64,000 nucleotides of DNA from Lineus longissimus. Lineage: Eukaryota > Nemertea > Pilidiophora > Heteronemertea > Lineidae. Numbering within the stretch: position 1 is the first letter of the stretch; every line of letters starts with the position of its first letter. Positions 1-63,300 of the stretch are shown in pieces. The position numbers were made by a program, and so were the translations under genes. The notes under the pieces were generated by a model that was not told where the DNA came from, did not search any database, and saw nothing but the letters and a program-made list of their open reading frames with translations. The stretch is from contig NC_088310.1 of NCBI RefSeq assembly GCF_910592395.1, forward strand, positions 13,151,501 to 13,215,500, given 5' to 3'.

Positions 1-1240
1 CCTGAAAAAAAAAATTTTGTTTATGGAAAACATTTCCTCCAAAAAATATCATATGCGACCTTTAAAATGAGGGCCAGTAAAGCCACTAGATGGCCAAATT
101 TGTTTCCGAGAGGTTTCGTTCTTTAAGCCTATACCTGTATGGCCTGTAGGTCCCGCTCCGAAAGTTTTCGCTGGACTTTATTTGGAAATGTTCTCGGAAC
201 GGGATAGCAAAACGTACCTCTTACGACGGCGTTCTCGTTTTGTGCAGTCGGGGACGCGGTGGGGTTGCGGCAGAGGCAGACCTGGGTCATCCCCGCCGGA
301 GATGATTTTGTGACTTTCCGGTAAAAAAAGAAACTATGTAGGGGAAAAATAGGGATAAAAAGGCCTGTGTATAGACCACGGGTCGGGAGCAAGATCTTTA
401 ATGAGCCCAAGTTTGCAAATTGTGAAAAAAACTCAGTCGATTGTCCCCTGCGGCCGATCCATCCGAAAACACTCTTATTTGGCTTCGATTGAGTTTTTGA
501 TGCTGGCCAGTCATGCAGTATCGGAGATGACCTAGCTTGAATACCTTGGGGCATGCTTTGACATTCCCAGCAAAGAACGCACTCTTCGGAGGCTACAATT
601 GGCCATTATTTTTGGCATCTAGCAGCTTATTGACCTTCATTTTGAGGTCGCATGCAAATTTCGAAGAAAAATAATGTTTCAGGTTATAGGCCCTTTGAAC
701 CCTTTGAGCCGCGCGGGTTGTGGTCCTCCTAATCTCTACGTGAAGGTATTTTGCAGTGACATTTTACTGCATGGCTTTCAGTCTACACAAATCCGTCTCA
801 GTAGTTTTGTGGCGTCTTTGTCTTCGCGAATTACGCGAAAATATTTTTTTTTGTCTTCAAGAAGGTTGTGACCAGGAAATTGCATTTTTGGCACTTTTCT
901 CGGCTCTCCGTGGTTAAAATGACGTGGCAAATGTTGTCATTCTGGGCTGGCTTTTCTTAGACAACCGACGACCCCCCCCCCCCCCCCCGGGCGACGACCC
1001 TAACCCTTTTTTTATTTTTGAAGGAACTTAAGACAATTTTTAGGCCTAGGCCTGATTATTGGACGTATAGGCCTATACGGTAACACGTTCAGGAAAAGGA
1101 AGAGTGGCTTTTTCATCGGCAATATAGCTTGGATATCCACGTTAATCCCTTAATCTACCGACCAAACCCCCGTTAGTGCCTTCAGTCAACAACACGTATG
1201 GCCATTATATGGCCATTACATTTCTATCCCCGACATTTAT
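1..1240. other. Gene-free flank
   Basis: The open frames here (for example 129-554 on -) have no recognisable domain and low-complexity composition. A C-tract lies near 971-989. No gene is supported. Confidence 0.5.
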
Positions 1241-34153: not shown

Positions 34154-34816
34154 TTAGCTCGGATGGCCAACTGTACAACCATTACATGACTTAAGGGTTC
34201 TGATTCCTTCTCCAACCAAATCCGCATACACCTGCACTGTTTCATCATAAACTGAACTTGACGAAGTGGCTATGGTGGAAGCGCTGGAATATTTTTCTTT
34301 TCGGTCTAGCTTCTCCAGTAGATCTGGAATGCTTTCCAGAAGATAGACAAATTCGACTGTCTTCAAGTTCAATGTCCACTTCATCCCAGCCTGGAAGGTC
34401 TTTGAAAACTCGACGTAAAGGCCTGAACCTTCAAAACTTTTCAGAGTCACCCCCACTTCACCTGGTAAAGTCAGCTGAAGGTGGGTTTGGTCTTGAAGCG
34501 CTGTAGTCAGCTGCATTAGTTCAGCCTGTAAGGCAATAAGTTGCCGCCCATACAGTCTGAACTTGCCCTTGCCCTTCTCGACTGTGACATAAATGGGGTT
34601 GTGCTTGAGGAACATACTGTTGTAACAACCATATGTTGTTGCAGGAAGTTCAGGTTTCTTGAAGTCTATTTCACTTGAAGACTCTGAGACTTTGTTGACT
34701 CTACGTTTCTTGGTCTCTGGGTTCTCTAGGCTGCTTGGTCTCTTCGCCCTATTTTTCTTTCCATCACTCATCTTAGTTGTCATCTCTTGTTTTAGGCTGA
34801 GGGCTGCTTGTGTCAT
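34154..34816 (-). CDS. Hypothetical protein of the PolB element (220 aa)
   Basis: The N-terminal 50 residues are basic with KKNRAKRP and KKRRVNK, nuclear-localisation-like. The rest is predicted alpha/beta (YVTVEKGKGKFRLYGRQ; GVTLKSFEGSGLYVEF). It could be a nucleic-acid-binding protein; a PC4-like fold crossed my mind but is not supported. It is intact, unlike the polymerase. Confidence 0.5.
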   Translation of the reverse strand: MTQAALSLKQEMTTKMSDGKKNRAKRPSSLENPETKKRRVNKVSESSSEIDFKKPELPATTYGCYNSMFLKHNPIYVTVEKGKGKFRLYGRQLIALQAELMQLTTALQDQTHLQLTLPGEVGVTLKSFEGSGLYVEFSKTFQAGMKWTLNLKTVEFVYLLESIPDLLEKLDRKEKYSSASTIATSSSSVYDETVQVYADLVGEGIRTLKSCNGCTVGHPS

Positions 34817-34980
34817 TGTAGGTGAATATTAACTGACTTGTTTACTTGTGGAGCACCGGTGCTTGAGTGGATAACTTGTCTTGGGATGCTGCCCTCATAT
34901 ACACTGACCCCTTCTCTGATTGGTTGATTTCAGTGCCGACGTAAAAGAACCCAATCAAATTGCATGATAACCTTTAATAT

Positions 34981-35372
34981 TTACATTTTTTGTCCATGAT
35001 TGGTGTTTCTTTGTGGCATTAGAGTATTTTCCTCAGACTTCTTCATGTTCCTGTCTAATTGCGTTTTGGTCTGTTTTCTATTATTTTCTGCTGGTACTGC
35101 TGGTACAATTATTGTGTAAATTGGGAAATATATCCTTTTTTCCGGTTGTGTAATGTTACTGACCACACTCTGCATTAGCGTTGTCAACTCTGATAATAGC
35201 TCGCCAACATCTTTGGTGTCTGGCTAGAAGTTGTGTTCTTTGGTCTACGTTTTAGCCGTGGCAGAGGTCTCTTGAATTGTTGAGTGACTGCACTCTTCTT
35301 GGTGCTGCTGTCTGTACTGTGCACCGAGCTTACTTTTGTACCATTCATGCCTTGCGATTGCTTTGAAGTCAT
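34981..35372 (-). pseudogene. Basic small protein of the PolB element, frameshifted
   Basis: Two minus-strand frames (35372-35184 and 35187-34981) overlap by four bases. The second frame reads upstream through PDTKDVGELLSELTTLM, so one gene with a single frame break near 35215 is likely. The N-terminal half is Ser/Thr/Lys/Arg-rich. Function unknown. Confidence 0.4.
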
Positions 35373-35473
35373 TTTATAGTATGATATTATCTAAACTTTA
35401 CGGCCGCTTTTATATATCTTCAGTAGAAAAAAGGACAACCACTTCTCTCAGCTACTTGATAACTTGTCAATCA

Positions 35474-38400
35474 TTAAATTGTTAAAGCCACCGTGCTGAC
35501 ACCATCAGGTAAAACTTTGCGTTTTGGGTAGAAGTAACTTAACCCGCATCGAATTTGCTCATAAGTCATTACCCTGTCATCCACCACACGAATTCCTCTA
35601 TTAACCCCTGATCCCGCTTGTTGTGACGCTAGGACATTGAGGTAATGTTCTTTCGTAAGTTCATTTCTCCTTTGTATTCCCTTAGAGCTATACTTAGAAG
35701 AATCAGAGCCAAAACAAAAGTATGTCTTTGAGCACAGCCCAATCATTCCATCTCCTTCGAACGCCAATTTAAACAATCCTGGAGTACGCTTATCGAATGC
35801 CTTATGCTCATTACAACAGCTGCGTGGAAACCAAGAGAGTTTATTATCTGGTTTATATTGGGTCCCAAGTTGATGAGCGCTGCTCCTTGCCTGTTCATAC
35901 CTTGCTTTGAATTCTGGTTTCATGAGGTCTTCCAAGTTCTGTCGGGTATGTGCGGCTTCTTTGAAATATTTTACTTTTGAGTGCTTCTCCATATTGGTAA
36001 CTGTTTTTCCATAGTAAGAATTTCCAAACAGTTTCTCCATTTCTGCTAGAATGCTCTTATCAGGGTGTGCGTCCCCTTGTCGTCTTGCATCTGACACTCG
36101 CTCACCTGCCTTCTTGAAACATGCAGAGGGTGTATACTCGACAACCTGATATATCTTGAAGCATAGCAGTCCGTGGTCAAGGTACCAACGTAGCAAAGGT
36201 GTGATGATCATTACCGTTTCACCATGAAGGCTGCCGATGGTCATTTTCCGAGGCTTTTTCATTAGTCCATGGCTTTCGGCATAGTCCTTCATGTGGTCTC
36301 CAATATCATCAATGCCCACATTGACATTTTTGAAGATGGGTGGCATTTCATCAAAACATTCGATCTTCGACTCTGGGACAGCAATGTCACATTCTACGAT
36401 ACCAAACAGGTCGTTGGCTTTGACAGCATTCAGAAATTCCTCCATTGTTGCCCCCTTTTTATGTCTGCGGCTCCACTTGGTTTTCGCGTGAAGGTCATTG
36501 AGAAAGGTCTTTATTTCTTTGTTTCCTTTGAGTTTCTGCCACTGACACTCATACATTTCCTCGACCTGATATCCTTCACCTTTCAAATAGGCATTTGTTT
36601 CTTTTGTTTTCTGCCGCAGTTGGGACAGCGGAACTTTGTTTACTGGATGTACATCGTGTTTACACGTGATGGGACATTCTTTTTCATGTCCGTGGTATAA
36701 ACAACCTTGAAACTGATAAATCTTGTTCAATTCCTTGCTATAGCCATCAACAGGCATGCTCTTTGGTCCTATTTTTGTTTCGTGTCCATCTTGATGTCTC
36801 TGTATGATCCCAGTATTATCCGCATGTCTCTTCCATGCTAACCATTCATAGGCTTGTAGTTCCCATGGAAAAGAACGTTCTAGTTTAAAGTTATTCTCCA
36901 ATTTTCGTCTATTGTAGAATTCAGTTCCTTGTTCGTTCATCAGACTTTCGAGATACAGTGAGTTTGCGTCGAAACCACGAATGGATTTGCAAATCTTTGG
37001 GTTTGTGAAAGCATGTTTTCGTATGTATGTTTTATCTTTTTCCTGATAGCGGTTGAAAATGATGGACGGACCACCAACAATTTGATTGCGCAATGAATGA
37101 TACAAATCAGCATCCTTCTTCCCAAAGAGGGTAAAAAAGATTCCTGTGTCCGAAAATAGATCTTTCATTGCTAAGCCAGGCAAACTTTGCCATCTTTGAA
37201 AAGGTCAAGGCCCCTAGACATGAAGTAATTGCACATTTTGTCTATCGCCCCCATGAAGGGTTTGACATCTTGGTTGTTGTACCATACAAGGAAATCCTGC
37301 ATTGATGACATGTCTTCTTCGATCCGTACCTTCTGCATACTTTCATATTGTTCTGCAGTAATGTTACAGTCTTTGAGTTGACTGTAGAATGCGTCATGAG
37401 GTGGAAGAGGTGTCTCCTTCAATTTCTCCAAGTTGTCAAACCATTTGTAGGGGAAAAAACCGTTAGCCTCGGGTACTTTGAACGATTTCAAGTATTTTGC
37501 ATACGTTGTGTTTGGAGCCAGGTAGTTTAGAATGTCCAAAATCTTCAGGTTATCAGTAGTGATAGACATGTAAACATTCTGTTTTTTTATAACATTAATA
37601 TTTGGTAGGTTCTCTTCGTCCCTTGTGGTGAACTTTATCAGGGCGGGAAACAATGCACTCTTCATTGCATTGACGTCATACTTTGCCGAGTTGAAACCAA
37701 TTACTGGTAATTGCTGTCGCCATCTGGAAAATTCCATGGCAATTGTGTTAATTGGCCTTGACCCTTTCCTCCGAGTTTTCCTCTCACATTCTGGCTAATC
37801 TTTGGTGCAATCATTTCCAACCTCATCGCAAGAGCCATCACAGTCATCCTCAGTTGCCATCTGTTTGTCGTCACCGTCCTCCTCCTCATCGTCATCACCA
37901 GGGTTTCGGGAGGCTTGTTCTTCTTTCACTATCAAACTCTTTAAGATTTCGGTCAGGTCGTGGTATTTGACATCAAGTAGTTTGCCAGCAGCGTCTGCAG
38001 TCTCATTCAAATAGGCCACGAATTGGTCTACAAGTTCATCTTCATTACCAGAACTGATGAAGCATTTTGCTTCTGTATATTCTGGAACAATACTGCATAC
38101 GCTGATGGAGGCAACGCGGTGCAGGGCTACCCACGACAATTTATCAGTGTTGGTCTTGTCTTTAACTTTGTCCATATAACATTCAATGTCATATGACGCT
38201 CAGTACGGGTGGAATTGATCCTCCTGTGCAGGGACCTGAATCCCATGTCTCTCCATCTTTGCGAATATGCTTGCTGGGGGTCTGAATACGCCACCGGGAA
38301 AAATAAACTTTGTCTTTCCCTGACTTTCCCTGAAATGGCAACTGTACTCAAAGACACTGTCACAACTTCTGCACTTGTGTGCTTTAGAATAGGACTTGAA

Positions 38401-39666
38401 GTCCTTTATATAACTAAAATGTTTCTCGGAGAGGTTAAGATAAAGTGTGGTTTTATAGTGACTAACACTGCGCCGTACGAGTTCAGCCTGGGCTTGTTGG
38501 TTGATGGAATAAACTTGAATATTGATCTCAAAGATGTCTTCCATTTCTCTCAGTTGATGTAACATCACACCACCATATTCTGCCATGCTGGTTTCTAATT
38601 CTGCCATTGCACAATACTCATTGAATAATACAACTGCGGGTGTCTCCAAACCATGAACTGAATGACCTTTATGTAGTGCCAGACAGCGAAAAAAACAGAG
38701 GTTGTCCGTGATTACACCCCCAGCTTTATATTTGCGATCCAATGCGATAATTGACCGGTTGTTCTTGATGAACTGTGGGAGCGGATTTAGTCCTGTACCT
38801 ATCGGGTGTGTGTGTAACGGGTATACATAAACCAGTACATTTGTCACAATATCAACGACCCACTGACTATTTGGTCTCTGCGCCTTAGCATACACTAGTA
38901 TATCAACATCTCCTAGGATTGATAAGAGACCATTCAACCCACTTTCGTTTTGTATCAACAGGGGTCGATCTAGTACTCTGGTGTTGTTGCTAGCGTGGTA
39001 ATACCTGCGCTGACCGGAGACATTGTTGTACAAGATAAAGCCAAAAGAATAATTAACCCTGTATTGATTATTCTGCTGTTGATGAATTGTTCGAAAGGTT
39101 ACCTCTAATTCCTGGAACGATGCAGACTCTAGCATGATATTATAAAGTCTCTGGCGCCGTCCATTCACCTTGCTTTTTGACTCGATGTGCTTCAGATTTT
39201 CCAAGTAGATCTGATGTAGTTCTGGTCTCACAAATGTTGGAACATGGACCTGGTGCGATTGCGCTGGATTGACACGTCTCGGAATTTTGTCAGATGGTTC
39301 CTCAGCTGCTATTTCTTCAGGTTTCTGGTGACGTTTCCTTGTTCCCCTTGTCTGCCCAGATGTAGTTGCCGTCTCTGTGGCAATTGCTGATTTCTGTGCA
39401 TGGCTCTTCATATGTCGTACCAAGTTATCTTTACGATCATATACTTGTGAACAATTGCTACATGTAAAATTCTGTTGGTCCAACGTGTGAGTGCTACGCT
39501 GGTGCCGTTTAAGCATGTCCAATCTGACAAATGTACGCTTGCATATATCACAAACATGGCTGCGCTTGTCATGCCCTTTTTTATGTCGATCAAGACTTTT
39601 CTGAGTACTGTATGTTTTATGGCACACAGGACATTAAAATTTTGACGGGGGTCTTTCTTCATCCAT
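35474..39666 (-). pseudogene. Family B DNA polymerase with C2H2 zinc fingers, broken
   Basis: One long minus-strand gene from ATG 39666. In order: three or more C2H2 fingers (CPVCHKTYS...H-x3-H), an OTU-like segment (TDNLCFFRCLAL ... HFSYIKDF), exonuclease motif I (YDIECY, about 38185), exonuclease motif II (GFNSAKYD), polymerase motif A (GFDANSLY), an inserted nuclease-like segment (CLYHGHEKECP), motif B (LFGNSYYGKT) and the C-terminal PGLFK...LCSKTYFC...KRKVLPDG block. Damage: in-frame TAA 39634-39636, TGA 38200-38202, TAG 37795-37797, a frame change near 37184, and loss of about 100 residues between motif B and LEDLMKPE that should hold the DTDS motif C. It would replicate the element DNA if intact; this copy cannot. 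Confidence 0.8.
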
Positions 39667-42433: not shown

Positions 42434-43474
42434 ATGGCAGTCGCAGAATAGGTTGAAAATGTTTTGTTAGCCGGCGAGGAAGACGATGACGTGTTTCTCT
42501 CCTTTTGCCAGGTCTGAAGGAGAGTACGTATGACCCAGCGAAACCAAAATTCAACATAGCAGACGTTTCAAGTGCACAATGCTGGGCATTCTTCAGATTT
42601 GAGAAGCAGGACCTATTCCGGCTCGCTGATGCCCTTCGACTTCCTGAGAGATTCGTCCTACGTAATAGATCAGTTATGGATAGGATATCTGCACTATGCA
42701 TCTTTCTGGCAAGACTTGCCTTTCCCAATCGATTCGTGACTCTTGAGAACTTTTTCAACTAACCTAAATCTACCCTCTTTATGACCGTTTCGTCTTTACT
42801 CAACTTCATATACGACAGTTTCTCTGGTAAACTCACCAATCTTAATCAACCCTGGCTTGTCAACAGATTTCAGGAATTCGCCGATGCGATACACGATAAT
42901 ACGCAACTGCATTGGCTTCATAGATGGGACAGTCAGACCGATCTGCCGGCCGACGCACCTCCAGCGCATATGCTACAACGGCCACAAGAGGGTTCATGCG
43001 ATAAAATTTCAGTCCATAGTGACACCAGATGGGATCATCGCCAACCTCTTTGACCCAATTGAAGGTCGAAGACACGACTGCTTCTTGCTGACACAGAGTG
43101 GTGTTCTGCAACAGCTTGAACAAGGGCAATGTGAGGACAGAAACCACGACCCATTCTGCTTATATGGGGACCCAGCCTATCCTACTGGGGACTTTCTCAT
43201 ACCTCCATACAGGAACGCGCATGATCAGAACCAGCTCGAGTTCAACAAAGCCATGTCATCAGTGCGCGAGGCAGTTGAATGGCAATTTGGTAAACTGATT
43301 CAGCAATTTGCCTTCCTGGACTTTAAAAAAAAACTCAAAGTTTTCTTACAGCCAGTCGCTAAACTTTACCTTGTCGGCGGTTTACTCGTTAACTGCCATA
43401 CATGTCTGTATGGCTCAGTCACCTCCAGCTACTTCAACGTTCAACCACCCGAACTCGAAGTTTATCTTGGGTGA
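42434..43474 (+). pseudogene. Harbinger (HARBI1-like) DDE transposase, broken
   Basis: ATG 42434 lies just after TATAAA (42426). The N-terminal helical region (DLFRLADALRLPERF; RISALCIFLARLAFPNRF) and then LNQPWL and FQEFADAI match Harbinger nucleases. The catalytic part shows GFIDGTVRPI (first Asp), GRRHDCFLL, YGDPAYP (second Asp) and REAVEWQFGK (Glu). The domain corresponds to DDE_Tnp_4. Breaks: TAG at 42449-42451, a frame change near 42505, TAA at 42760-42762 and a frame change near 42900. The protein would cut and join the element ends. Confidence 0.85.
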
Positions 43475-46807: not shown

Positions 46808-47522
46808 TAATAGACAGGATTAGCAGACGCCCGACTCCGACTCCGAGTGCGAGGTGATTCCCTTTTTGCGCTTTACGTCATCAACAGTGCGGGGGTTTCC
46901 CAAGTGGTCACTCGTACTCGCTCGTAAACTCCGAGTTGGACGTCCTCTATTCGTAAGTGCGCTCCCAGTGCAAATTTCTCTGTTATCATCGAAGATTCGG
47001 AGTATTTCCTGATCATTTTTAAATGTAAATGCTTTCAAGGATATGTCAATGCCCAGCAATGTAGTTCTGGTGGAAAAATGGTGCTCTGTATGGGCATCTT
47101 TGTTGGGTGGCATTCTCGCGATTTTTTTGCACATCGATGCGCATGCGATGCGTGCACATCATGTGTACATGACATGCATCATGTGCATGGTAGTAGTTAT
47201 CAATGGTTATTACAAGTGAGGAAGCATGCAATTGCCCTTGGGTTATTTTTTGCTCCCAAGTCCAAGATGTAGGCCTATCTGCCATTTCTGGTTTAATTCA
47301 CGATCAAAGGAAAATCACTGCCGATCAGCTGATTGTTTCCGTCATCTGCTATGTTTACGTTTCGCAGCGCCATCTAACGTAAAACACCTGGAACTGAGAT
47401 CAACTCTGACGGGGAGTCGTGACGTTGCTAATCGATCAAACTGAACATTCGCGCGCGGATCCGACTCTGACTCGTACTCGTACTCGGAGTCGGAGTCGGG
47501 CGGCTGCTAATCCTGGCTATTA
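46808..47522. mobile_element. 715-bp MITE-like insertion in the tandem array
   Basis: Ends are inverted over about 40 bp: TAATAGACAGGATTAGCAG, then CGCCCGACTCCGACTCCGAG on the left and the reverse complement at 47485-47522 on the right. It splits an array unit between GTAGGCTTTT and CAGGGTGCGTGT. A clear target-site duplication could not be defined. The minus-strand frame 47134-46820 (104 aa) has no recognised domain. Confidence 0.75.
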
Positions 47523-47558
47523 CCAGGGTGCGTGTATCCAACAACGAACCTGTGCGTT

Positions 47559-47587
47559 CAAGGAGGATCGGACAACTGGTCACATGA
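47559..47587. repeat. Left TIR of the SANT/HIRAN element
   Basis: 29 bp; differs from the right TIR only at position 26 (A against G). Preceded by CTGTGCGTT. Confidence 0.85.
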
Positions 47588-47978
47588 TCTACTATGAAAG
47601 GTCAAGGTCATATAAACAACTACACGTGGTCAATATGTCAATAATAATACGTCTTTTTAAATGCTGTTTCCATAGAGATAGCTATGGGTTATTAAAGATT
47701 TTATAACTGAATATGTTTAAATAATGACAGAAGAGATTTATAAAGAAAAAAGGTAGTCTTTTGCTGCTCATTTTCTTGAAAAATCTGCATCGATCGAAGT
47801 GAGGTTAATGTATGTGAAAATGAGCATAGTGTTTGGTAGCCTTGGTAAGAGGTCGGTTATTGTCATTATCATAGGGGATCTTGAAAAATGGTGGCCACCA
47901 TCGTGTTTATCATGAAATTTACCAGCAAAAAGAGCCTGAGATCCCCTAAGATCCCCAGGTTTTAGCCCTCTAGATACC

Positions 47979-50900
47979 ATGGAAACGAGACATAAACAGC
48001 GCTCTTCACGATGGGCCTTAAGTAGCGTTTTTGGTGCAAAAAGGCAGCAGAAAAGGACTGAAGAAGAGGTAGATCATCCGTCATCATGTGTGTCAACCAG
48101 CACTCTTGGCAGCACATCAAATGTGACTGATGCTAGTCATGACAGCAAATGTTCGTCACCTGCAAAGCGATTCAGGACATCGGCTTACTCACCATCTTTT
48201 TCTCCTTCGAAAAGTCCTGCTCAACTGGTGAGTAAGAAAAGTTTGATAGCAGATAGATGTAATGTTGATGATGAGTGTAGCCTGTGTGTGCTGTAGCTAT
48301 GTATAACTACAGGCTAGGCCTATGATAAAGGCACTTCCCTATAGGAAGGCCTAGGCCATGTCAAATGCATTGGTCAGGCTTGACTTGGCATGCCTATCGC
48401 CTATTTATGCTACGGTGCATAACGTGTGAATCAGTATTGCCTGCATCATCATCATGATCTGGTTATGAGTATTGTCAATCGAAATAGTTGTCTCTCATGT
48501 TACTCATCTTTGGTAGGGCATAGAATGGCAGGGCACAATGCCTGACACATCTGTGTGTGAGGATGAAGTCTTTAATTCTGCAACTTTGTTTTCAGACTGC
48601 CAATAGGCTTTTACTGAAAGCTTTGAAACCCAGCCCAAGCAAGATACAAGCTAGAGGAATTCATGGTGAATGGTCCCATGACGAGACAGTAGCTCTTGTT
48701 CAATTTATTGCCATGCACAGGTAAACATCAGGAATTATATAGCCTAAAAACATATAGAATTTGATAACAGTTATAATGACAAGAGTAAAATGAATTTTTT
48801 GTCTTTTTTTCTCAAGAGAACTGCAAACCAATGAAGAAACTGAATGGCCCATGATGAAACCGCCACATAATTATTGGACAGAAGCTGCTAAGTACATACA
48901 TGATGTCACGGAATCTGTAAAACGTCAAGGTAATTTAATGTTTTATTCCCAGTTTCATTTGCTGTTGAAGTTGCTGTCATTTCATTGAGTGACATGTTTT
49001 GAATTATGCTGATTATAATCTTTTTCATTGCATAGGTTGACACATAAGGTGTAATGTAAGTATGGGTTTGGCTTGTGTGCTGGTTGCTTTTTGTCCACAC
49101 CGCTTTATATCACTGTCATTGCATATCGCTTTCACCAAGGGTTTGGTATATTTGGGTGTGGTTGTGCTTATAGTTCTCGTCATGGGCCTTACGGTTTCAC
49201 TTGTCTCTGTCTTTAGTCTTTCGTCAGTAGCTTTACCAACTGCACTAACCTCTCCCATCCTATCCTGCGGCTCCTTCATGCTTTTGATGGGCTTGGTTGC
49301 ATGTTTTAGTTGTCGTTATTTCTTTCAGCTGGAGGTATACGCTCAAAGGTCATAAAACTTCGAAATGAATATGGCACTGTAGACAATGCTGAGGAGAGAT
49401 TGGGGATCACAGTGGACTCGTATGTGGATGGCACACGGCCAGCACCAACAGCAACACCGCCACAACTTTCTCTTCCGCCACCTCTCAAGGATCTTGGCCA
49501 CCTGACCCCACTTCAAAAGCAACAATTATCAGAGAATTTAGTAAAATCACTTCCAGAAAGCCAACTCCTGAAGCTACTGAAAAGTCAGATCAGTATCAAT
49601 ACCTTTTCACACCATTTTTTGAGTGACCTCATCCAGACATGCTTTAGAGCTGACAACATGGGGGACCATACAAGTGTGTTGGATGAACTTTTTTTCTGCC
49701 ACTTCTCCAAGCAAGCAGACATTGGGGACCTTCCAGGTGCTGACTTTATCACCCTGTCAGTTGATGCAATGAAGAAGCTGAAGTCGGTGGGGAAATCAAA
49801 TCTTATCTACAAGTGGCCAAGGTGTATCTCATTGAGGAGACCAAAAAGCGAGGAGTCTCTACTGCCACTGAATAGAATGCCATTTGGATTGATTGAGTAT
49901 CAAATAGACTTCTTCAATGCCAATCACGTGAACCAGGTAAATAAGCGACTGTATTTGATGGGACATCATCATATCATTGGAATGAAACCTGTTAACATGA
50001 GTCATGCTGTTATGCTGATGGCGATTGTTTTTTTTCAGGTGAAGGAGTCGAAAGATTTTGCATCGTGGAGAGAAACCCTTGATGCGGAATTAACGTTGCA
50101 CCAAGACAAGTTGATAACCGGTCCTATGTGGAGTGGCCTACCGCACAAGGATCTTGGAAATCCATTAAAGGTAACATGATTTTAATATCTTCTGTTGAAA
50201 TGGCTTAACCAGGGGAGCAGTGAAGCATGTAGAGAATGTGGTTGAATACCATTATTATACTGGTATACTCGAGAAAACATACCTTAGTTTCATTACTTCT
50301 TTTTCTTCTTTTCAAGTCTCGAGTAAACCTTGCCTGCCGCAGTAAACAAACCGTACGCCGGAAACTTGCAAAAGTGGAGGGTGTTTCAACAGAACCTGAG
50401 ATTCAAGTAAGTAAAGATCTGGCTTTCTTTGTCAGGAAGCAATCTGATGGTGCATGTATTGATACATGTTTTGGATTTAAGCTTGAGTTTAAATCATTGA
50501 TTGAGAAGGGGAAAATGCATTGTGCAGGTCCTCTTCAGCATCCTACTCTCAGACTTATATCTTATTAACAGAAAAACACCATTCTGCAACTCAAAGATGC
50601 AAACCCCGATGGTCGCTTTTGGCTCAAAGCAGATGGAGTAGATGTCAAGCCGGCTCTCCAAGAATCTATGAAAGGGACATGGAATGGTGATACCGATATT
50701 GGGGATGGAAAATTGCAGAAGCTGAGAGAGGACTACGACAACCGTAGAAGGGGAATCGAAGACATCATTTCCAATGACAGTCTCCAGCTTTTGCATTCAG
50801 TCAAAACCAGTCTCGAAGATGATTCCGAGTTCCTCAACACTGGAGTAGAAAATGCCATCAAAATCTACCGGAGCAAGTTCAACAACAAGAACACCCCTGA

Positions 50901-53262
50901 GGAAACTCTGAAGTCTCTCCATTGGGAAGTGGTCGAGTACACAACTCTCCTCACCCAAAGTCAGCAGTTCATCGGGAATGTTGAGAAGATTCTTGAACAG
51001 TACGCTTCCAACACCATGACAATTGGCGCTGCAAGGGACTGCCTCCGCAAAATGAATGCTGCTGACTACAAAACCTATCTGAAGAATCTGTTCAAGAAGA
51101 AGCGTCAGCCGCCTGCATCTCATGTACTCGTATTCATGTTGTCAGATGAAAGACGAAAGAAGAAACCATATGCTGCCCCAGTTCAATTCATCCCATACCA
51201 CAGCATTCGAGATCAGTACATCAGGGATTTCAGCAAAGCAATAAAGCAGGAAATGGTTTCAAGTGGTCTTTGTGTAGTAGGTAAGTCAATTCCTCTACAG
51301 TTTTCAATGTGAAATTTTATCTTTCGCAAGGCTTGTGTACATCTTTATACTTGTTTTCTATTCTAATTTCTCATTGCTTCAGGTACTGTTACGGACGGTG
51401 AATTCTGTTCCTTGCGCTCAATGGGGGAAACAAGACCTCTTCATTTATGGCAGCTAGTTCATGATGCCAAGCAAGCGGTTTCCAGGATGAACAAGCAAAC
51501 ACTCTTGGAGGTTCTGATACCAACCAATGGTATGTTCCATAGGTAGTTGTGATTGCATTGATAGAACACTATCGAAAAGCCTTTAATACCCATGATCGGA
51601 TAATGTGGGATGAAGATTTATATGCACCCCTCTAGAAGTTTCTGACTTTTTTCCAGTCTTCCATGATGGTGTCCCTGTGATGATCCGAGAAAATGAGGTC
51701 GTCCCCGACACGCTCAAACTGCAGCTTCATGATCTTGTGCATCAGCAACGGATCCCAGAAGAAGAAGCTATTGACCAAGTTCGCCAAGAGCTTGTCCCAG
51801 TGGGTTATGAACCTTGTCCGTGGAGACCAAACTGCCCAGAGTCATACTTGGAGAAATTGCGCAGCATACTGGGAACAATGTATTTCAGGTTAGCAACAGA
51901 CTGGTTTCTCTTGTATTATTGATAACCATTCATGGCTGTGTGTTCCTTAGGTTGATAATTTATTATTGACAATTTCAGGAACAGTGTGGAAAGTTGGAGT
52001 AATCGTGGAGTTGACTTCCGCCATCATCTGTACATACCAGAAGTGGACCCAACTACCAACCAAGTCCACCACGAACGTGCAGATCACTGCCACCTGTTGA
52101 AACGAATTGCTGGTCATACCCGAGAAGGCCGATATCCAATGCTGGAGTTTGACGGTTTTGACGAGGCAATGAGAGATCCAGGAACTGGACTGACGTACGC
52201 TGCCCTGGTAGGAAAAAGGAAGCAATCGGTAACAGATGCCGAAAAGTTATTGTCCTTCCCTGTTGCCAAATTCCTGGAAGAAAACGGTTTTGAAAGTGCT
52301 GCCAAATATGTACACACCATAGCCCAATGGCATGAGGGCAGTGATGGGCGTGGCTTGTCACAGTTGCAGCGTTCAAGGTACAATTACTTGACACTCAACT
52401 ACATCATGGATGAGTTAATGCCTTGGCATGCTGAGAGGAATGATTTGTCAACAATCGACATCAATCGGTAAGAATTTTTTCAAACGGCTTCTAAATTCTC
52501 ATAAATAGTTTTGGAAGTACATTGTACGTATTGTCATACTGGTACTTTGTTGATATTTACAGCCCATGGAACTCAGTTCGAGGTTTCTCTCGTGAGACGC
52601 TGATTGAAGTGACCACGAATATTGAGAGCCAAGAATACAGAAGACGAGAGAATACCACCATTGGCTATTCGGAGCACCCAAGGGCAGGAACAACAGATGA
52701 TGTCGAGGCGCTGTTTTCTATATGTCATCGTCACCTTGGCGATACCTTCACCCTACAGGACTTCAAGCACAGATGGATGAAATTGGTCAAGTACGGAAGT
52801 ATTCCTTTTCTATATTACTAGAACCGTCCATTCCATTGTCTGATCATAAGCACTTATCTTTTCAAGTGGTCTGATACTTAGTAGGTGAATGTAACTTGTC
52901 ATGCTGCAGGTTAGTAAAGGTTATCATTCATTCATTAATCTGATTTCAGCGAGTTCAACAAGAGGATGGACCACAATCTTCCTTTCTACTATTGGACTTT
53001 GAATGAGCGTTTCAAGCTTGAGCAGGAGAGCTTCGACCAGCGTCCAGATTTTGATGAAAATGAGGTTGATGTCACACGCCATCCACTCAGACTTCATCGC
53101 TTGAGACTGTCATCTCGAGAGGACAGTTCCATTTTCTCAGCTGGACGATCATTTCTACCAGCCAAGAACCGGCCATCAGTCCGTCAGCGATTTCATAGAC
53201 TCGAAGTCGGCCTTCCTCCTGTTCCAGAGGACCAGCAAATCAGATTGCAAGATTTAGAATAA
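47979..53262 (+). CDS. SANT/Myb-like 1,144-aa protein, candidate transposase
   Basis: Exons: 47979-48227, 48596-48720, 48817-48929, 49329-49936, 50039-50170, 50317-50406, 50572-51280, 51383-51529, 51657-51888, 51979-52467, 52563-52790, 52950-53262. All phases agree, giving 3,435 nt. Residues 1-83 are Ser-rich and basic. Residues 108-190 resemble a SANT/Myb-like DNA-binding domain (GEWSHDETVALVQFI; YWTEAAKYI; IRSKVIKLRNEYG). A Pro-rich linker follows. The core from about 440 has FWLKADGVD (Asp 460/463), VTDGEFCSLR (Asp 680), HHERADHCHLLKRIAGH, and AGTTDDVEALF (Glu 1013) with FTLQDFKHRW. These could be an RNase H-fold DDE set, but that is inference. The last codon overlaps AATAAA at 53258-53263. 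I do not recognise a named family. Confidence 0.75.
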
Positions 53263-53263
53263 A
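53258..53263 (+). terminator. AATAAA overlapping the stop codon of the 1,144-aa gene
   Basis: The stop TAA (53260-53262) is inside AATAAA. Use as a polyadenylation signal would give a very short 3' UTR, which fits a compact tail-to-tail element. Confidence 0.35.
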
Positions 53264-53501
53264 TGGATAGAGGCAAACTTGGGCACCACACTATCCTCCT
53301 GGCTCCCATTCTAACTGGGTATGGGGGCAAATGTATCATGGACAATACTAATTGGGGAAAACGGCAAAAAATGATAACGATGAAATGATAATATTTGAAG
53401 GATGAAGTGATTATATTTGAACAATATACAAAATATTATTTACATGACAGAAACACTTCTTAGGTGAATTCATTTGTCTTGTTTCAGTTACAAATACAAG
53501 T

Positions 53502-54809
53502 TCACAGAATAGCCCCGTACGAGTAACTAGTATCTGGGGCAGGCCACTTTCCTTTTTTAACAATTTTACAATATCCATTTAATATACACTTGTTGGCAGC
53601 AGGGACATATTTGCGGATGACCTTGTCAATCTTGACTGACACAATCAAGTCATTTTCCATGCAGGTGGTCACTGCTCGAATCCGCTCCTTCGGAATGTAT
53701 CCCGCAACCTTGAAAACATTGTTAATTTCGCACTTAACCACAATAGCATTTTTATCCTGTGGATTGTCCTCTTCCTTTTCAAGGATGGTTGCGACAGTTT
53801 TTCCTCGACAATGTTTCAGAACATCCTGTCTTTCCTGAGAGTAACTGGCTCCCCTAATCCAGAGACTGACATCCCTGTACCCGTCGTCATCATCATCCCC
53901 TTCTGGCTGATCACAGTCACTATCAGAAAGTCTCATACCGTTCATTCCTAATTCATCCAATGAGGAAGATGAATCACCATTAGAATGAGACACCTCGGCA
54001 TGATCACCGTCTCTCAACAAAACTGTCTCTCCTTTTACGGTACAATTGCATGGGACATCAAAAGACACAAGGGGGAATCCGTACTCGTCTGGTGTGTTAC
54101 CGTTGTCTGCTATTACAAATTGTCCGGGTGCACTGGGCAGTATATCAAAATCAACGATCAATACGGATTGACAGGAATCCTGAGTATCATCAGTGACATC
54201 ATCATCTTCAGGATCGGAGAACTGAAAATATAAAAGAAGTTCGAATCATGAGACAAGTATTACAATAATAATCGATATAGGCTACATCTCGTGCATGTTC
54301 ATCGCCTGTCATACGTACATCAAGCATAGGCCTAACTGCATCACATGTACATAACATGTACTACATGAAGTAGAACCTATTTTCGGATATGTACTACATG
54401 AAGTATAACCTATTTTCGGACAAGAAATATAACACGTACAATCCAAGCAGACCGTTCATTTACACTAATTAGCGGTTAAGACATCAGTAGGCCTCATCTA
54501 TTATCGAAAATACTTTGATTTGATATCATTACTCACCACAAAATCGCATGAAGAAGTGACTTTAATCAGGGCTGGAGTCCACGACTTCCTCAAAGCATGA
54601 ACTTTCTCCGAATCAACAAAGAGGAGAGAATTACGCACAAATATCCGATTCATGTACGAAACATGCCCACCTGTCACTCGTATCTTGTAGGCAGGACAGC
54701 AAACGATCGGAATGTCTTGTACAAGCGGTACTAAACAATAAACTAAGAGGGTATTTGACTGTAGAAATTTGGATTGTTGCTCCGATATGTACACACCGAC
54801 GGCGGCCAT
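53502..54809 (-). CDS. HIRAN-domain protein, 330 aa, two exons
   Basis: Minus strand, exon 1 54809-54537 (MAAVGVYIS..., donor GTGAGT) and exon 2 54221-53502 (acceptor TTTTCAG), phase 0. Exon 1 codes for 91 residues of unknown fold with CCPAYKIRVTGGHVSYMNRIFVR-like beta content. An acidic linker follows (EDDDVTDD; EGDDDDDG). Residues about 212-300 form a HIRAN domain: GASYSQERQDVL, then EEDNPQDKNAIVV and VAGYIPKERI, the family signature of R...E-x-NP-x-DKNAI-x-V...GYIP. In HLTF this domain binds 3' ends of single-stranded DNA (family knowledge). Here it stands alone, with no helicase, inside a transposon. It may recognise the element ends or repair intermediates (inference). Intact. Confidence 0.8.
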
Positions 54810-54859
54810 GACTCTGATGCCGTCAGTTGCAAAGCGCTAATATAACCCGAGAGCACTAG

Positions 54860-54888
54860 TCACGTGACCAGTTGTCCGATCCTCCTTG
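54860..54888. repeat. Right TIR of the SANT/HIRAN element
   Basis: 29 bp; contains CACGTGACC. Its inner edge is 50 bp from the HIRAN start codon, so the promoter of that gene must lie in or next to the TIR. Confidence 0.85.
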
Positions 54889-55380
54889 CTGTGCGTTGCA
54901 CCTTTTTTCATTTTAACCCTTTCTGGCTGATATATGAGGCGCTACACAAAAATGTTTGTCCGGGCCATTTCTCGGTGTGTATCAATAGTAGGCTTTTGAT
55001 ATTTACAATGTGTGTATATCCAACAATGAACCTGTGCGCTGTGCCGTTATTTTTTTAACCCTTTGTGGCTGATTTAGGGGGCGCTCTATACAAAAAAATT
55101 GTCCAGGCCATTTCTCAGTGCCTATCGATAGTAGGCTTTTGATATTAACAGGGTGCGTGTATCCAACAACGAACCTGTGCACTGCACCATTATTTGTTCA
55201 TGTTATCCCTTCAAGGCTGATATAGGGGGCGCTACTCAAAATTTTTGTCCGGGCCATTTCTCGGTATGTGTCAATAGTAGACTTTTGATATTTACAGTGT
55301 GGGTGTATCCAACAATGAACCTGTGAGTTGTGTCATTATTTTCTCATTTTTGCCCTTCTCACCATAGACCGCATCTACAC
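54889..55380 (+). repeat. Tandem array, about 146-bp units, right part
   Basis: Unit starts at 54957, 55100 and 55246 (periods 143 and 146). Continues the array left of the two insertions and decays after about 55340. Confidence 0.85.
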
Positions 55381-56252: not shown

Positions 56253-56493
56253 GAATTGGCGACGAGGATTGAAATGAACAATCAAAGAATGCAATAGAGC
56301 AAAATGTCAGAACTGTCAGTACTTTGAGAAGAGTGTGTGCAGGTTTTTGTGCAGAGAAAATGATGAGTGACTGATTTCCTGTTCATGCATTGAATGCCAT
56401 GTGCATTTCTACAAACATTTCACGGGACTGAGTGCATTGGCTGTGTACATGAATACATTTGAGGATCTGTGCTCGTTATTCTACAGAATAAAC

Positions 56494-57249
56494 ATGACAG
56501 ATTTTAAAGTCCCGGTGCCCAGGTTTTCTGGTAAAAAGGAAGACTTTGAAGCATTTGCAGAACAATTTCTCAGTTGCATGGTTGCAAATGAAGTCACGGA
56601 TGAACAGAAAATCGTACATACACTTGTGGCATTCATGGGGGACGAGCTATACAAGCTTGCCCATGACCTTTTTGCACCTGCGAAAGTCACGGATCAGAAG
56701 TACGACGAGATTGTTGCTAAATTAAAGGCACATCTCATCCCTGCACCAAACATCATCACTGCGCGTTGTACATTCAATCGTTGCACACAAAAGTCTGATC
56801 AGGACATTAACACATTCATTGCTACATTACGGCGGATGGCAGAGGACTGCAAATACGGTGACCACCTGAATGTGTGGCTACGTGACCGCTTCGTGGCAGG
56901 CCTACACAGCGAATCAATTCGCCGACGTTTGCTGCAAGAAAACGAGAAAATGACATTCGACAGTGCATGCAAGATTGCACTGGCATACGAGACGGCCAAT
57001 CGAGAGGCAAAATCATTGCAAATGTCATCGAAGCCGGTAAATGCCGTAAAACAGAAACAAGGTCGTGCTTTTACAAAGAAGAAATCGGAGGTCAAGGAAA
57101 AATCGGGAAATGCTGCATCCGGTTCAAGTTCGCGACCATACGTCTGCATTCGATGCAAATCTACGAAACATAAAGTGACGGATTGCCCGCATTGGAGTTC
57201 GGAGTGCCATAACTGCGGTAAACGGGGCATATCCGAAAAGCGTGCTTAG
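56494..57249 (+). pseudogene. gypsy Gag protein
   Basis: The likely start is ATG 56494 (MTDFKVPVPRF); the frame is also open from 56401. The central part (QKIVHTLVAFMGDELYKLAHDL; RRMAEDCKYGDHLNVWLRDRFV) is a retrotransposon gag domain. The C-terminus has a first zinc knuckle, CIRCKSTKHKVTDCP, and starts a second, CHNCGKRG, where the frame breaks. Gag forms the particle and packages the RNA. Confidence 0.75.
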
Positions 57250-57267
57250 CGTCAAAATCGGGTACCG

Positions 57268-58303
57268 GTCACGGCAAAGGTCTAACCAAAACTCTCAGCT
57301 TACTCGTAGTTGAAGGTGAGGGTGCTTCGCTCGTTGGTAGGAATTGGTTGAAGCATATAAATGGTTGGAAACATCTTTTTGGTACAACAGCAGACATTAG
57401 GTCTTTAGAGACAGATACTGAACTTACAAATGCTACCGAGGAGGAAATTCGTGGTTATCTACAGGATAAATACCCGGATGTGTTCAAAGATGGCTTAGGC
57501 TGCCTGAAGGGAGTGAAAGCTAATCTGAAGGTCAAGGCCGATGCAAAACCAGTGTTTTGTAAAGCATGTACTGTGCCATTCAGTCTACGTCAAAGGGTGG
57601 ACGACGAAATTGAACGACTCGAACGTGAAGGAGTAATTGAAAAAGTTACCCATTCCGATTGGGCCGCGCCCGTGGTACCAGTGGTGAAACCTAACGGTAG
57701 TATTAGGTTATGTGGTGATTACAAACTGACGCTCAATAAGTTCGCTGATAATGAGCAATACCCCATGCCAAAGATGGAAGATCTCCTCTCTAATCTGGGT
57801 GGAGGTGCCGAGTTTTCAAAACTTGACTTACGCACCGCGTACCACCAGGTTCAACTGAATTTGGAGTCGAAACCGCTTACAACAATAAATACTTTAAAGG
57901 GACTGTATCAATACACTCGTGTTCCCTATGGGGTCAGCACGGCACCAATGATGTTTCAGCGCCTAGTGGAGAATATTTTGGCGGGAATTCCAAATGTCGC
58001 TGTCTCAATGGATGATGTCGGTGTCACTGGGAAGAACAGACGTGAACATTTGAGAAACCTTGAAGAAGTCCTGGGGAGGCTGAATGCAGCAGGACTACGC
58101 CTACGCTTGGAGAAATGTCGATTCTTCATACCGAGCATGCAATACATGGGGGTACAGGTCGACAAGACTGGCACTCAGCCTACAGATGAGAAAATTCGCG
58201 CGATTGCAAATGCCCCTGCGCCGCCGAATTTGTCTGAATTACGTGCATATCTGGGACTGATAAACTATCATCGAAAATTCCTTCCGAACTTACGCGCCTC
58301 GCG
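57268..58303 (+). pseudogene. gypsy Pol: protease tail and reverse transcriptase
   Basis: The frame resumes with LSLLVVEGEGASLVGRNWL, the end of a retropepsin, but the DTG active site is gone, so sequence between the gag knuckle and this point is deleted. RT follows with DWAAPVVPVVKPNGSIRLC, LDLRTAYHQ, VPYGVSTAP and the catalytic VSMDDVGVTG (normally YxDD). At about 58290-58303 the frame changes before the RNase H part. Confidence 0.8.
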
Positions 58304-59458
58304 CCGTTGTATGATTTGCTACATAAGAACACCCCTTGGAGATGGGGCGAGGAACAACGGAAAGCTTTCGAGGACAGTAAAAACAGTCTTACTAGCAACA
58401 CAGTACTCATTCACTATGATCCGAATAAGGAACTTATTCTCTCTTGCGATGCCTCACCCTACGATGTAGGTGCAGTGTTGCAGCACAAAGTGGAAAAAGG
58501 TGAACGTCCGGTCGCTTTCGCGTCGAGGAGGCTCAACAAAGCCGAATCTAATTACAGTCAAATTGAGAAAGAGGCGCTCGCGATCATTTTTGCCGTACAG
58601 AAATTCAGACAGTTTTTACTAGGCCGGAAATTCAGTTTGATTACAGACCATCAGCCGTTGGTAACTTTGTTTTCACCTGCGAAAGGAACTCCTGTACTCG
58701 CTGCGTCGCGCATGAAGCGCTGGGCCCTAATCCTTTCGACATTCGACTACGAGATCCGATACCGTTCGGGAAAGTGCAATGCAAATGCGGATGCATTATC
58801 AAGATTACCGCTTGAGGAAACTGTGAAAGATGGACCAAAGCCGAGTGATGCTGAACATGTTCTTGTGATGGACACTGTTGATGAGGACTTGCCCGTTACA
58901 TGTAGGGATATCGCGCATGAAACCGCAAAGGATCCGATATTGCGTCGTGTAAGATTGCGTACAATGGAAGGTTGGCCCGAGAAATTAGAGTCCGCCGATG
59001 AAGTCTTAAGGCCGTACTTTAATCGCCGGAATGAACTGAGCTGTGAGCAGGAATGTATTCTGTGGGGTACACGGGTAATCGTACCGCGTACATTGCGGGA
59101 AACCTTGCTTACGGAGATACATTCGTCTCACGCTGGTATTGTGCGAATGAAAGCACTTGCGCGTTCAATTCTATGGTGGCCAAAGTTGGACATTGACATT
59201 GAAGAAATGGCCAAGTCTTGTTCCGAGTGTACTGAAAATGCTAGAAAACCCGCTGCTTGTAATCCCACTGCTTGGCAGTGGCCGTCTGCGCCGTGGAAAC
59301 GCATTCACGTTGACTTTGCGGGTCAATTCCTGAACTTTCATTTCTTCGTAGTTGTGGATGCACATTCGAAGTGGGTCGAAGTTGAGATTATGTGTGACAT
59401 TACATCTGCTGGTACAATCAGAGTTCTGCGGAAAATTTGCGCGTTTCGGATTACCTGA
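58304..59458 (+). pseudogene. gypsy Pol: RNase H and integrase N-terminal half
   Basis: RNase H shows LSCDASPYDVGAVL, NYSQIEKEALAI, TDHQPL and NANADALSRLP. Integrase begins with an HHCC zinc finger (HSSHAG...CSECTENA) and HVDFAGQF with the first catalytic Asp. A one-base frame change near 59437 ends it. Confidence 0.8.
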
Positions 59459-60218
59459 GCATCTGGTGTCCGATAACGGTAGTCAATTTACATCCGCCGA
59501 ATTTCAGTTATTCTTGAAGGTGAATAACATTCGTCATACGCTTACTGCACCTGGCCATCCTGCGACAAATGTTCAGGCGGAACGTCTAGTTGGAAGTTTC
59601 AAAGACTCGCTCAAGAAAATGAAAGATCAGTCTGGAACCGTAGAGGACAAGTTGCAACGTTACTTGCTCTCTTATCGTACTACGCCTCAGTGCTCGACAG
59701 GGAAAGCCCCCTGTGAACTGCTCATGCGAAGGTCGTTGCGTACTCGACTTTCTGCGATTCGTCCGTCAGCTGATACACAGCCGATTCCAAAGGAGGATCC
59801 TAAAGCCGAAAAATTCCGATATTTCGAACCTGGACAGCCTGTTTTCGCCCGTAACTACGGCACTCATGGTGCAAAATGGCTGCCTGGTGTCATTCTTGAA
59901 AGACACGGGTCCAGAAACTATCAAGTTTCTGTTGGAGAGTTTGTGTGGAAACGCCACATTGACCAACTCCGTACACGCTATGCAGAGGTGCCCATGCCTC
60001 ACTCTGGAGATGCTACTCCAGATCTCACCGATACTTCGCTACCGGTGAATCCCGCAAGCCAGCCGGCTTCCCAGGCTCCTACTCCACCAATGGAGTCGCA
60101 ACCAAGAGTTGTACCACCAGAGACTCAATTGCCACAGCCACCCCGGGTTGTCACATCACCAAGGAGAAATCCGCCGCGTGAGAGGAAGAGACCAGTGAAA
60201 TTCAAAGATTTTGTGTAA
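59437..60218 (+). pseudogene. gypsy Pol: integrase C-terminal half
   Basis: Continues in another frame with FARFGLPEHLVSDNGSQF (second Asp) and ATNVQAERLVG (Glu), then a C-terminal basic Pro-rich tail. Stop at 60216-60218. Confidence 0.8.
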
Positions 60219-61350: not shown

Positions 61351-61770
61351 CTAAGGCACCTATTCCATAGAGCTATACCCTATACTATACAATACGCGAA
61401 CAATAGTTTCATGGTCATGCACCCTTTGTGAAGCCATTGTTCGCGTATAGTCTAGTATAGGGTATAGCTCTATACTATACAATACGCGAACAATAGTTTC
61501 ATGGTCATGCACCCTTTGTGAAGCCATTGTTCGCGTATAGTCTAGTATAGGGTATAGCTCTATACTATACAATACGCGAACAATAGTTTCATGGTCATGC
61601 CCCCTTTGTGAAGCCATTGTTCGCGTATAGTCTAGTATAGGGTATAGCTCTATGGAATAGGTGCCTAAGGCACCTATTCCATAGAGCTATACCCTATACT
61701 ATACTATACGCGAACAATAGTTCGCGTATAGTGTAGTATACCGTATACCTCTATGGAATAGGTGCCTAAG
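61351..61770. repeat. Nested palindromes with three 90-bp tandem copies
   Basis: Copy A (61351-61668) has ends TAAGGCACCTATTCCATAG and the reverse complement, with three 90-bp units inside (61381, 61471, 61561), each itself an inverted repeat (ACGCGAACAATAG / CATTGTTCGCGT). Copy B (61666-61770) is the compact palindrome with the same ends and a core TATACGCGAAC-AATA-GTTCGCGTATA. The two share GGTGCCTAAGGCACC. Confidence 0.9.
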
Positions 61771-61935
61771 GGTTGCACCTCCTCAGTTCATTTGGACTGG
61801 TTTGTGACAATGTCCTCTAAATGAATTGAATGGTCTCTGTTGGCACTTAGCAAACAAAACTGTCTCGGGATATGCTGAGACCCCATGTCCCACGTCATCA
61901 AGGCGTGGCAAACAAGCTGAGACTAATAAGAGATC

Positions 61936-63300
61936 ATGGAAGGCAAGAACAAGGGAATAAGCAGATATTCCACACGAATAATGACATTAAGTGTGTTATG
62001 TCTGTGGATTTTCTTCACATATTTTGCAGTCCAAAACGATCTGACTGTAATGCAACAAAACCGAGTGCCCAATATGAAACTGGCCAACGTGACCCAAAGG
62101 CCTAAACCCGCTATAACTCATGGAACGCCTGAACATAAGCACACTACAGCTGATGGTACGACTGGACATAAGCCCACTATAGCTGATGGAACGACCGGAT
62201 ATAAGCCCATGTTAGCTGATGGAACGCCTGAACATAAGCCCACTCTTGCTCATGAAACGCCTGGCCATATGCCCTCCATAGCCTATGCTTCGACTTGGTT
62301 CCACTATATAAACTGGCCACAGGGTGATTTCAGAAATTTCTCTTCCTGCAGAAACAAATGTATGATTTCAAACGATCCAAAAAGTGCCGATGCTGTGGTT
62401 TTTCATAATCGCGGTCGAAATTTGGATTCAGCTTTTGAGCTTCATCACAGGAATACGAATAATCGACGTCACCAGGTTTTTATTTTCTTTGGCCGAGAGT
62501 CAGAAATACACACAAGAATAAACGGCGAACATCTAAATTCTGTCTTCAACTGGACAGCTACTTACAAACGAGATTCCGATGTCATCACTAGCTATTCGCA
62601 CATCGAACAATTGAAAAATGAGCACATTGAAGGTAAAGTGACAAGTTTCTTAGCTGCCGAATTCGACAAAGATACAAGTCTCATCCAATCCAACAAAATA
62701 GTAACTGGAACGAACTATGCAAAAGGTAAAAACAAGATGGCGGTAATGATGGTCAACAATTGCTATGCCAATACTAACAGGTTAGAATACGCCAAGAAAC
62801 TACGCGAATATGGCGTTCATGTTGATATTTTTGGCAAGTGTGGCAAAAGGTGCCCAGGAGGCTGGTGTCAAATAACTGATATTGCACAGCATTACAAATT
62901 TTACTTGGCATTCGAAAATTCCCATTGCCCAGATTACATCACCGAAAAGTTCTGGACCAATGCCTTGGGACATGGTATGATACCGGTTGCCCTGGGAACG
63001 AGTAAAGAGGACTACTTGCAAGTGGCGCCACCCCATTCGTTTATTCACACCGCCGATTTCCAGACAGTTGCTACGTTGGCGGAATATCTTAAGTTACTGG
63101 ATAAGAATGATGTACTCTATAACGAGTATTTTGAGTGGAAAAAACACTACCGGGTTGTTTATACTCGCCCGGCCTGCCGTCTGTGTGAAGCGTTACATGA
63201 TGAGAAAAAAATGAACCGGAGGAAGATATATTCCGATATAAAGTCGCACTGGGATGCAACCAGTCATTGCCAAAATAAGGGCCCGCTGCCCCTCCCATAG
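61936..63300 (+). CDS. Alpha-1,3-fucosyltransferase-like protein (GT10)
   Basis: A 454-residue intact single exon from ATG 61936. It is a type II Golgi membrane protein: short basic cytosolic tail, signal-anchor at residues 17-32, then a stem with five 11-residue repeats (60-114) of the form xADGTxxHKPT. The catalytic part has NWTATYKRDSD (205-215), a VNNCYANTNRLEY region with VDIFGKCG (296-303), and the GT10 signature YKFYLAFENSHCPDYITEKFW (320-340) followed by GMIPVALG and PPHSFI. GT10 enzymes move fucose from GDP-fucose to GlcNAc in N-glycans or Lewis-type glycans; exact linkage cannot be read from sequence. C-terminal CRLC may form a disulphide. Intronless structure is common in the family. 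Confidence 0.9.
   Translation: MEGKNKGISRYSTRIMTLSVLCLWIFFTYFAVQNDLTVMQQNRVPNMKLANVTQRPKPAITHGTPEHKHTTADGTTGHKPTIADGTTGYKPMLADGTPEHKPTLAHETPGHMPSIAYASTWFHYINWPQGDFRNFSSCRNKCMISNDPKSADAVVFHNRGRNLDSAFELHHRNTNNRRHQVFIFFGRESEIHTRINGEHLNSVFNWTATYKRDSDVITSYSHIEQLKNEHIEGKVTSFLAAEFDKDTSLIQSNKIVTGTNYAKGKNKMAVMMVNNCYANTNRLEYAKKLREYGVHVDIFGKCGKRCPGGWCQITDIAQHYKFYLAFENSHCPDYITEKFWTNALGHGMIPVALGTSKEDYLQVAPPHSFIHTADFQTVATLAEYLKLLDKNDVLYNEYFEWKKHYRVVYTRPACRLCEALHDEKKMNRRKIYSDIKSHWDATSHCQNKGPLPLP

Follow-up and report, generated by a model that had tools for sequence, protein, structure and literature searches.

Few animal transposons are as well studied as P elements, and the members described in the cited accounts carry a THAP domain and make target site duplications of 7-8 bp (8 bp in P, PMC7776569; 7-8 bp in Galileo, PMC4168063). 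The P element uses GTP, and it leaves unusual 17-nt 3′ single-stranded extensions (PMC7776569). P, hAT, Kolobok, MuDR and Dada have a C/DxxH motif in common, and their duplications measure 4-10 bp (PMC10045372, PMC3706591). Here we analysed 64,000 nucleotides of the nemertean Lineus longissimus (contig NC_088310.1, positions 13,151,501 to 13,215,500; hereafter, the window), in which a transposon occupies positions 47559-54888 (7,330 bp). As judged from its sequence and from structural models, we take it, with a probability of roughly 0.8, to be an intact DNA transposon of the cut-and-paste kind that has two genes and transposed recently, and we classify it as a putative new lineage of P-like transposons whose partner gene, encoding a HIRAN protein, is likewise new. 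Its boundaries are as follows.

47550-47558, no strand: target site duplication, left copy (CTGTGCGTT, 9 bp); the joined empty site matches an array unit
47559-47587, + strand: left terminal inverted repeat (TIR), 29 bp
54860-54888, - strand: right TIR, 29 bp, a single mismatch versus the left TIR
54889-54897, no strand: target site duplication, right copy (CTGTGCGTT, 9 bp, exact copy)

An earlier note, made from the letters of the window, had proposed a transposon family here on the basis of TIRs with one mismatch in 29, an exact flanking 9-bp repeat, an empty site that reads as a normal 146-bp array unit and two spliced genes of 12 and 2 exons with open frames. All of these observations were reproduced: the TIRs agree at 28 of 29 positions, and the genes encode 1,144 and 330 amino acids. 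The first 20 TIR bases (up to 3 mismatches) occur at 2 places in the window, both at the element ends, and at none in 100 shuffles. The DNA around the element is a tandem array of 146-bp units. When joined with one copy of CTGTGCGTT, the flanks of the element match the array unit at 55143-55342 across the junction (86% over 201 nt, gaps at 5 positions) and show 80-83% identity with other units. The empty site is thus a normal array unit, and the 9-bp duplication therefore stems from the insertion, not from chance. The same array is also broken by an insertion resembling a miniature inverted-repeat transposable element (46810-47522, about 710 bp, with 46-bp inverted ends that are 93% alike), which ends 36 bp to the left of the two-gene element.

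The element belongs to a multicopy transposon family of L. longissimus. Counts from the genome search are lower bounds, and C and L numbers below are our handles for places in the genome. The left 601 bp have at least 2 further copies at 98% identity (C13 and C7), and the three left ends differ mutually by about 1.5%. The C13 copy matches up to element base 2173, where a simple repeat follows, with no transposase match past residue 305 among the matches listed; at C7 the left match ends at base 1690, other DNA separates it from further exons, and matching ceases at base 4714. An 18-base TIR pattern (up to 2 mismatches) was found at no fewer than 38 places, versus 7 for the reversed pattern. 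On C16, a TIR pair with both cores perfect encloses 11,958 bp with both genes, arranged as in the window; the transposase there forms ten match blocks (residues 100 to 1143, 47-82.5% identity to the window protein), and both HIRAN exons match at 43%. At C15 the transposase and the HIRAN gene come with a left TIR, and a right one was not found. C6 has a right end that is 96.5% identical and the HIRAN gene, and C20 a right TIR and the HIRAN gene, where the 18.5 kb examined gave no match to the transposase. C9 carries TIR-bounded elements of 947 bp and 5,539 bp, neither matching either protein.

Opposed TIRs were paired across the window, the C16 stretch, L028, L041 and loci L014-L025. This gave 4 pairs; the remaining TIR matches examined had no opposed partner within the DNA examined. 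Flank agreement peaks at exactly 9 bp in all four (9/9 positions in the window, 8/9 for the 947-bp element, 7/9 for the 5,539-bp element and 5/9 on C16), and just 0 to 4 positions agree at 6, 7, 8, 10 or 11 bp. These results indicate that 9 bp is a property of the family, for which the C16 case would be insufficient by itself. With the second two-gene element, the further copies and the four TIR pairs, the proposal of a DNA transposon family with a HIRAN gene and 9-bp duplications stands. The recent activity also proposed is probable, given the further copies, the short TIR-bounded elements and the second two-gene element; the approximately 98% likeness of copies suggests the same. The note would have given up its proposal had no second copy with matching ends turned up anywhere, and further copies were found. 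An alternative, that a domesticated or single-copy host gene pair happens to lie between chance inverted repeats, would suit the entry of the large protein at NCBI as an ordinary predicted protein; it is contradicted by the perfect duplication and the empty site and refuted by the multiple genomic copies, which leaves it next to no probability.

Side by side with these copies, two other features were observed. In the NCBI model of the second HIRAN gene (LOC135500158, P0014, C16:12139445-12142647), HIRAN exon 2 of the element is combined with exons (residues 1-188, outside the right TIR) from a repeated gene family next to it; this is either a genuine fusion transcript or a gene-model artefact. 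A variant end, CAACGAGGATCGGACAAG, occurs at eight or more genomic places, including L021, L022 and L024, with no opposed end within 1.5 kb at the three loci examined, and possibly marks a related family.

The two genes and their features are as follows.

47979-53262, + strand: transposase gene, 12 exons with GT/AG junctions, open frame, 1,144 amino acids plus stop
48596-49936, + strand (exons 2-4): Myb/SANT-like domain, residues 108-184 (Pfam Myb_DNA-bind_4)
50632-50634, + strand: codon of the putative catalytic D460, in beta 1 of the RNase H fold as modelled; kept in 11/11 members
50701-51090, + strand: modelled helical bundle, residues 483-612, inserted between RNase H beta 1 and beta 2
51394-51396, + strand: codon of the putative catalytic D680, after beta 4; kept in 11/11 members
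52082-52093, + strand: D837xxH840, the D(2)H motif; kept in 9/9 members extending that far
52705-52707, + strand: codon of the putative catalytic E1013, in a late helix; kept in 9/9 members extending that far
47979-48227, 48596-48720, 48817-48929, 49329-49936, 50039-50170 and 50317-50406, + strand: transposase exons 1-6
50572-51280, 51383-51529, 51657-51888, 51979-52467, 52563-52790 and 52950-53262, + strand: transposase exons 7-12
53502-54809, - strand: HIRAN partner gene, exons 54809-54537 and 54221-53502, 330 amino acids, open frame
53646-53792, - strand: stretch matching Pfam HIRAN, residues 235-283, with the DNPxDKNA core

The 1,144-residue product is identical throughout to NCBI LOC135484921 isoform X2, an uncharacterized protein of L. 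longissimus, and a protein search found relatives in several phyla; Branchiostoma, Mytilus, Actinostola and Amphiura are among the animals that have them. The earlier note had called it a large SANT/Myb-like protein and knew of no superfamily that pairs it with a HIRAN protein. Its Myb/SANT-like N-terminus was borne out (E 0.0028, 18.5 bits, under the curated Pfam cut-off of 27), but the protein is not an orphan: the remainder appears, from the models, to be a DDE transposase with the P element fold. Residue conservation was scored over 11 family members, 9 of which extend to the DxxH motif and the last E. As in the P superfamily, the DDE triad (D460, D680 and E1013) lies in a predicted RNase H fold, and the D(2)H motif stands between the second D and the E. 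The P element fold was the best structural match to the transposase model by a wide margin, with Transib and RAG1 next at half the score. The alignment comprises 316 residues inside positions 202..566 of the P chain, so that, by arithmetic, it takes in no fewer than 178 of the 227 residues that separate D303 from E531; an insertion domain of the P type, placed after beta 5 and before the last helix, is thus predicted, by fold only. Omission of the helical bundle made most Pfam TNP-like_RNaseH_N matches stronger and longer. The fold and the conserved residues say that the transposase would work like a member of the P superfamily, and P-like cut-and-paste transposition is very probable.

The Pfam scan of the 11 members, 5 of which include the N-terminal region, gave no match to a THAP domain at E values up to 1. 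Because this domain and the 7-8-bp duplication, both used to delimit the P superfamily, were not seen, we call the element P-like and do not file it in that superfamily; the duplication does suit a 9-bp member of the wider clan, in which lengths span 4-10 bp. A 9-bp duplication would also suggest a Mutator-type (MuDR) element, and the DxxH motif is common to MuDR, P, hAT, Kolobok and Dada. Against this assignment, no Mutator/MULE transposase domain was matched in Pfam across the 11 members, a scan from which remote relatives can escape, and the P fold led by its wide margin, in a comparison that is not decisive by itself because no solved MULE structure is known to us. We consider a Mutator-type element very improbable.

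The second gene lies tail-to-tail with the transposase gene, 239 bp apart by subtraction. Its product matches Pfam HIRAN with an E value of 3.3e-4 (20.9 bits, cut-off 24.7), and HIRAN is the top family for the exon-2 pieces of all 5 copies (E 7.4e-5 to 0.014). The alignment of the DNPxDKNA core to HLTF is weak (E 0.97); in it, D243-N244 stand opposite two HLTF asparagines that we tentatively take to be N90-N91. At every one of the five listed loci that keep the transposase beyond residue 1040 (C3, C15, C16, C12 and C6), the HIRAN gene is again tail-to-tail with it, with match ends 246 to 331 bp apart (by subtraction). When the window element is compared with that on C16, synonymous divergence is too high for correction, and the nonsynonymous divergence (dN) is 0.284 (transposase) and 0.485 (HIRAN gene), from which we infer joint retention of both genes under long-term constraint. 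From these sequences, the HIRAN gene looks like a true partner of the transposase, and we lean towards the view that it is required for transposition. Among the literature matches listed, the titles and abstract openings describe no eukaryotic transposon with a HIRAN gene.

It is also conceivable, if unlikely, that the HIRAN gene was captured from the host and rides along as a passenger, taking no part in transposition. Many transposons carry captured genes, relatives of the protein were found only in Lineus, and between the close copies C15 and C16 the ratio of dN to synonymous divergence (dS) is just moderately under 1: about 0.75 for the transposase (0.012/0.016) and about 0.6 for the HIRAN gene (0.020/0.033). 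A passenger would not be expected to keep its tail-to-tail place at all five loci that retain the C-terminus of the transposase, which represent two or more deeply diverged subfamilies, nor to show a dN of 0.485 where dS is too high to correct.

A number of observations weigh against an intact P-like transposon with a dedicated HIRAN partner. All 5 HIRAN copies score under the 24.7-bit cut-off, protein searches of limited sensitivity found no relatives of the HIRAN protein outside Lineus, and the C15/C16 ratios give little sign of constraint since the split. The C12 pair is decayed, with internal stops; HIRAN matches without a listed adjoining transposase match occur at C20, C12:5397703 and C8; and a transposase copy at C9:11233210-11243510 (to residue 939) has no HIRAN match nearby. 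These unpaired matches and the C9 transposase may be remnants. None of the five C-terminal pieces available from the 11 members had a Pfam match, no subterminal inverted repeats of 9 bases or more, which P has, were found in the element, and the C16 flanks agree at 5 of 9 positions only. The case as a whole rests on sequence and models. As relatives of the transposase occur in several phyla and those of the HIRAN protein only in Lineus, the transposase may function elsewhere without HIRAN.

In the mechanism that we propose, the Myb/SANT-like N-terminus, in the place of THAP, would recognise the element ends, and the RNase H core would excise the element and join its 3′ ends to target strands 9 bp apart. 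The HIRAN protein, in the least certain step, would be a dedicated partner that binds the single-stranded 3′-OH ends of the excised element and protects them or steers repair. The HIRAN domain of HLTF binds 3′-OH single-strand ends, and changing N90-N91 abolishes the binding (PMC11237066). Since P leaves 17-nt 3′ extensions, a role of HIRAN at the 3′ single-stranded ends suggests itself by analogy, although it must be held as tentative; a partner holding such ends would explain the retention of the gene. Another possible and about equally tentative reading is that the HIRAN protein does not bind DNA ends and instead serves in regulation or in targeting to chromatin, as a RAG2-like partner. RAG1-like and RAG2-like genes are convergently oriented (PMC7204232), a layout that the worm element recalls, and the Transib and RAG1 folds rank next after P for the transposase model.

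If the P-like reading with a HIRAN partner is true, the lineage combines the P fold with a different DNA-binding domain, a lengthened duplication and a conserved partner gene, and would reveal what the P machinery cannot do without and what it can exchange. With its HIRAN partner, it becomes testable whether transposons with long single-stranded 3′ ends need a guarding protein. Copies that are about 98% alike suggest recent activity, so that the system may still be operating in the living animal.

The window contains several other features, all of them outside the element. On the + strand, a reading frame at 42785-43471 has a DDE_Tnp_4 transposase domain (E 4.1e-21) and is presumably Harbinger-type. 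Frames at 56371-60215 (+) resemble a long terminal repeat retrotransposon, with reverse transcriptase, RNase H and an integrase zinc domain, which we take to be Ty3-type. A fucosyltransferase (GT10) frame at 61930-63297 (+) has its N-terminal part encoded by a 33-bp repeat (5.5 copies, 62103-62282), and a 90-bp unit is present three times at 61380-61653 (99% matches), with an inverted repeat inside it by eye. On the - strand, a series of long frames at 34157-39633 includes one with C2H2 zinc fingers, the others lacking Pfam matches at 0.001; inspected by eye, the series resembles a portion of a large self-replicating mobile element.

Compared with known systems, the likeness to Harbinger that the earlier note drew holds for the two-gene layout and for nothing beyond layout. 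PIF/Harbinger elements have two genes and a Myb/SANT-like domain, and differ in making 3-bp duplications and in having a separate Myb protein; in the worm element the transposase itself contains the Myb-like part, and HIRAN is the other gene. With a 9-bp rather than a 3-bp duplication and no DDE_Tnp_4 match in its proteins in Pfam, the element is not a PIF/Harbinger member. Nor does it belong to Kolobok, which is defined by a 4-bp TTAA duplication (PMC9587614); here the duplication is the 9-bp CTGTGCGTT. MuDR/Mutator elements are alike in the DxxH motif and in 9-bp duplications, as in maize Mu, and differ in the Mutator domain, not found here, and in that the worm fold is nearest P. RAG-like elements and Transib are alike in the convergent two-gene layout (RAG-like) and in the next-best folds, and differ in a fold score half that of P and in a partner that is HIRAN and not RAG2. 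RAG-like duplications are about 5 bp.

The closest systems are the P/THAP9 elements (Drosophila P, Galileo and zebrafish THAP9 elements), with which the worm transposase appears to share the RNase H core, the insertion-domain fold and the DDE triad. The TIRs are of similar length (29 bp versus 31 bp in Drosophila P, PMC7776569), and the distance from D(2)H to the last E is 173 residues versus 190 in Galileo, where the motif is D449(2)H452 (PMC4168063). In contrast, the second D is 157 residues from the DxxH motif, versus 34 in Galileo, and the core has a predicted helical bundle between beta 1 and beta 2. No THAP domain was found and the N-terminus is Myb/SANT-like, subterminal inverted repeats of 9 bases or more were not found, the duplication is 9 bp rather than 7-8 bp, and there is a second gene. 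What would be new in this lineage is thus the different DNA-binding domain, the additional domain within the catalytic core, the greater length of the duplication and the conservation of a second gene. If the HIRAN protein does bind 3′ ends, this would be the only transposon known to us that brings such a partner of its own. More speculatively, the element may stand for a separate, superfamily-level animal lineage, in which a P core that split before or apart from the capture of THAP finds its ends through Myb/SANT, makes 9-bp duplications and depends on HIRAN to guard long 3′ ends.

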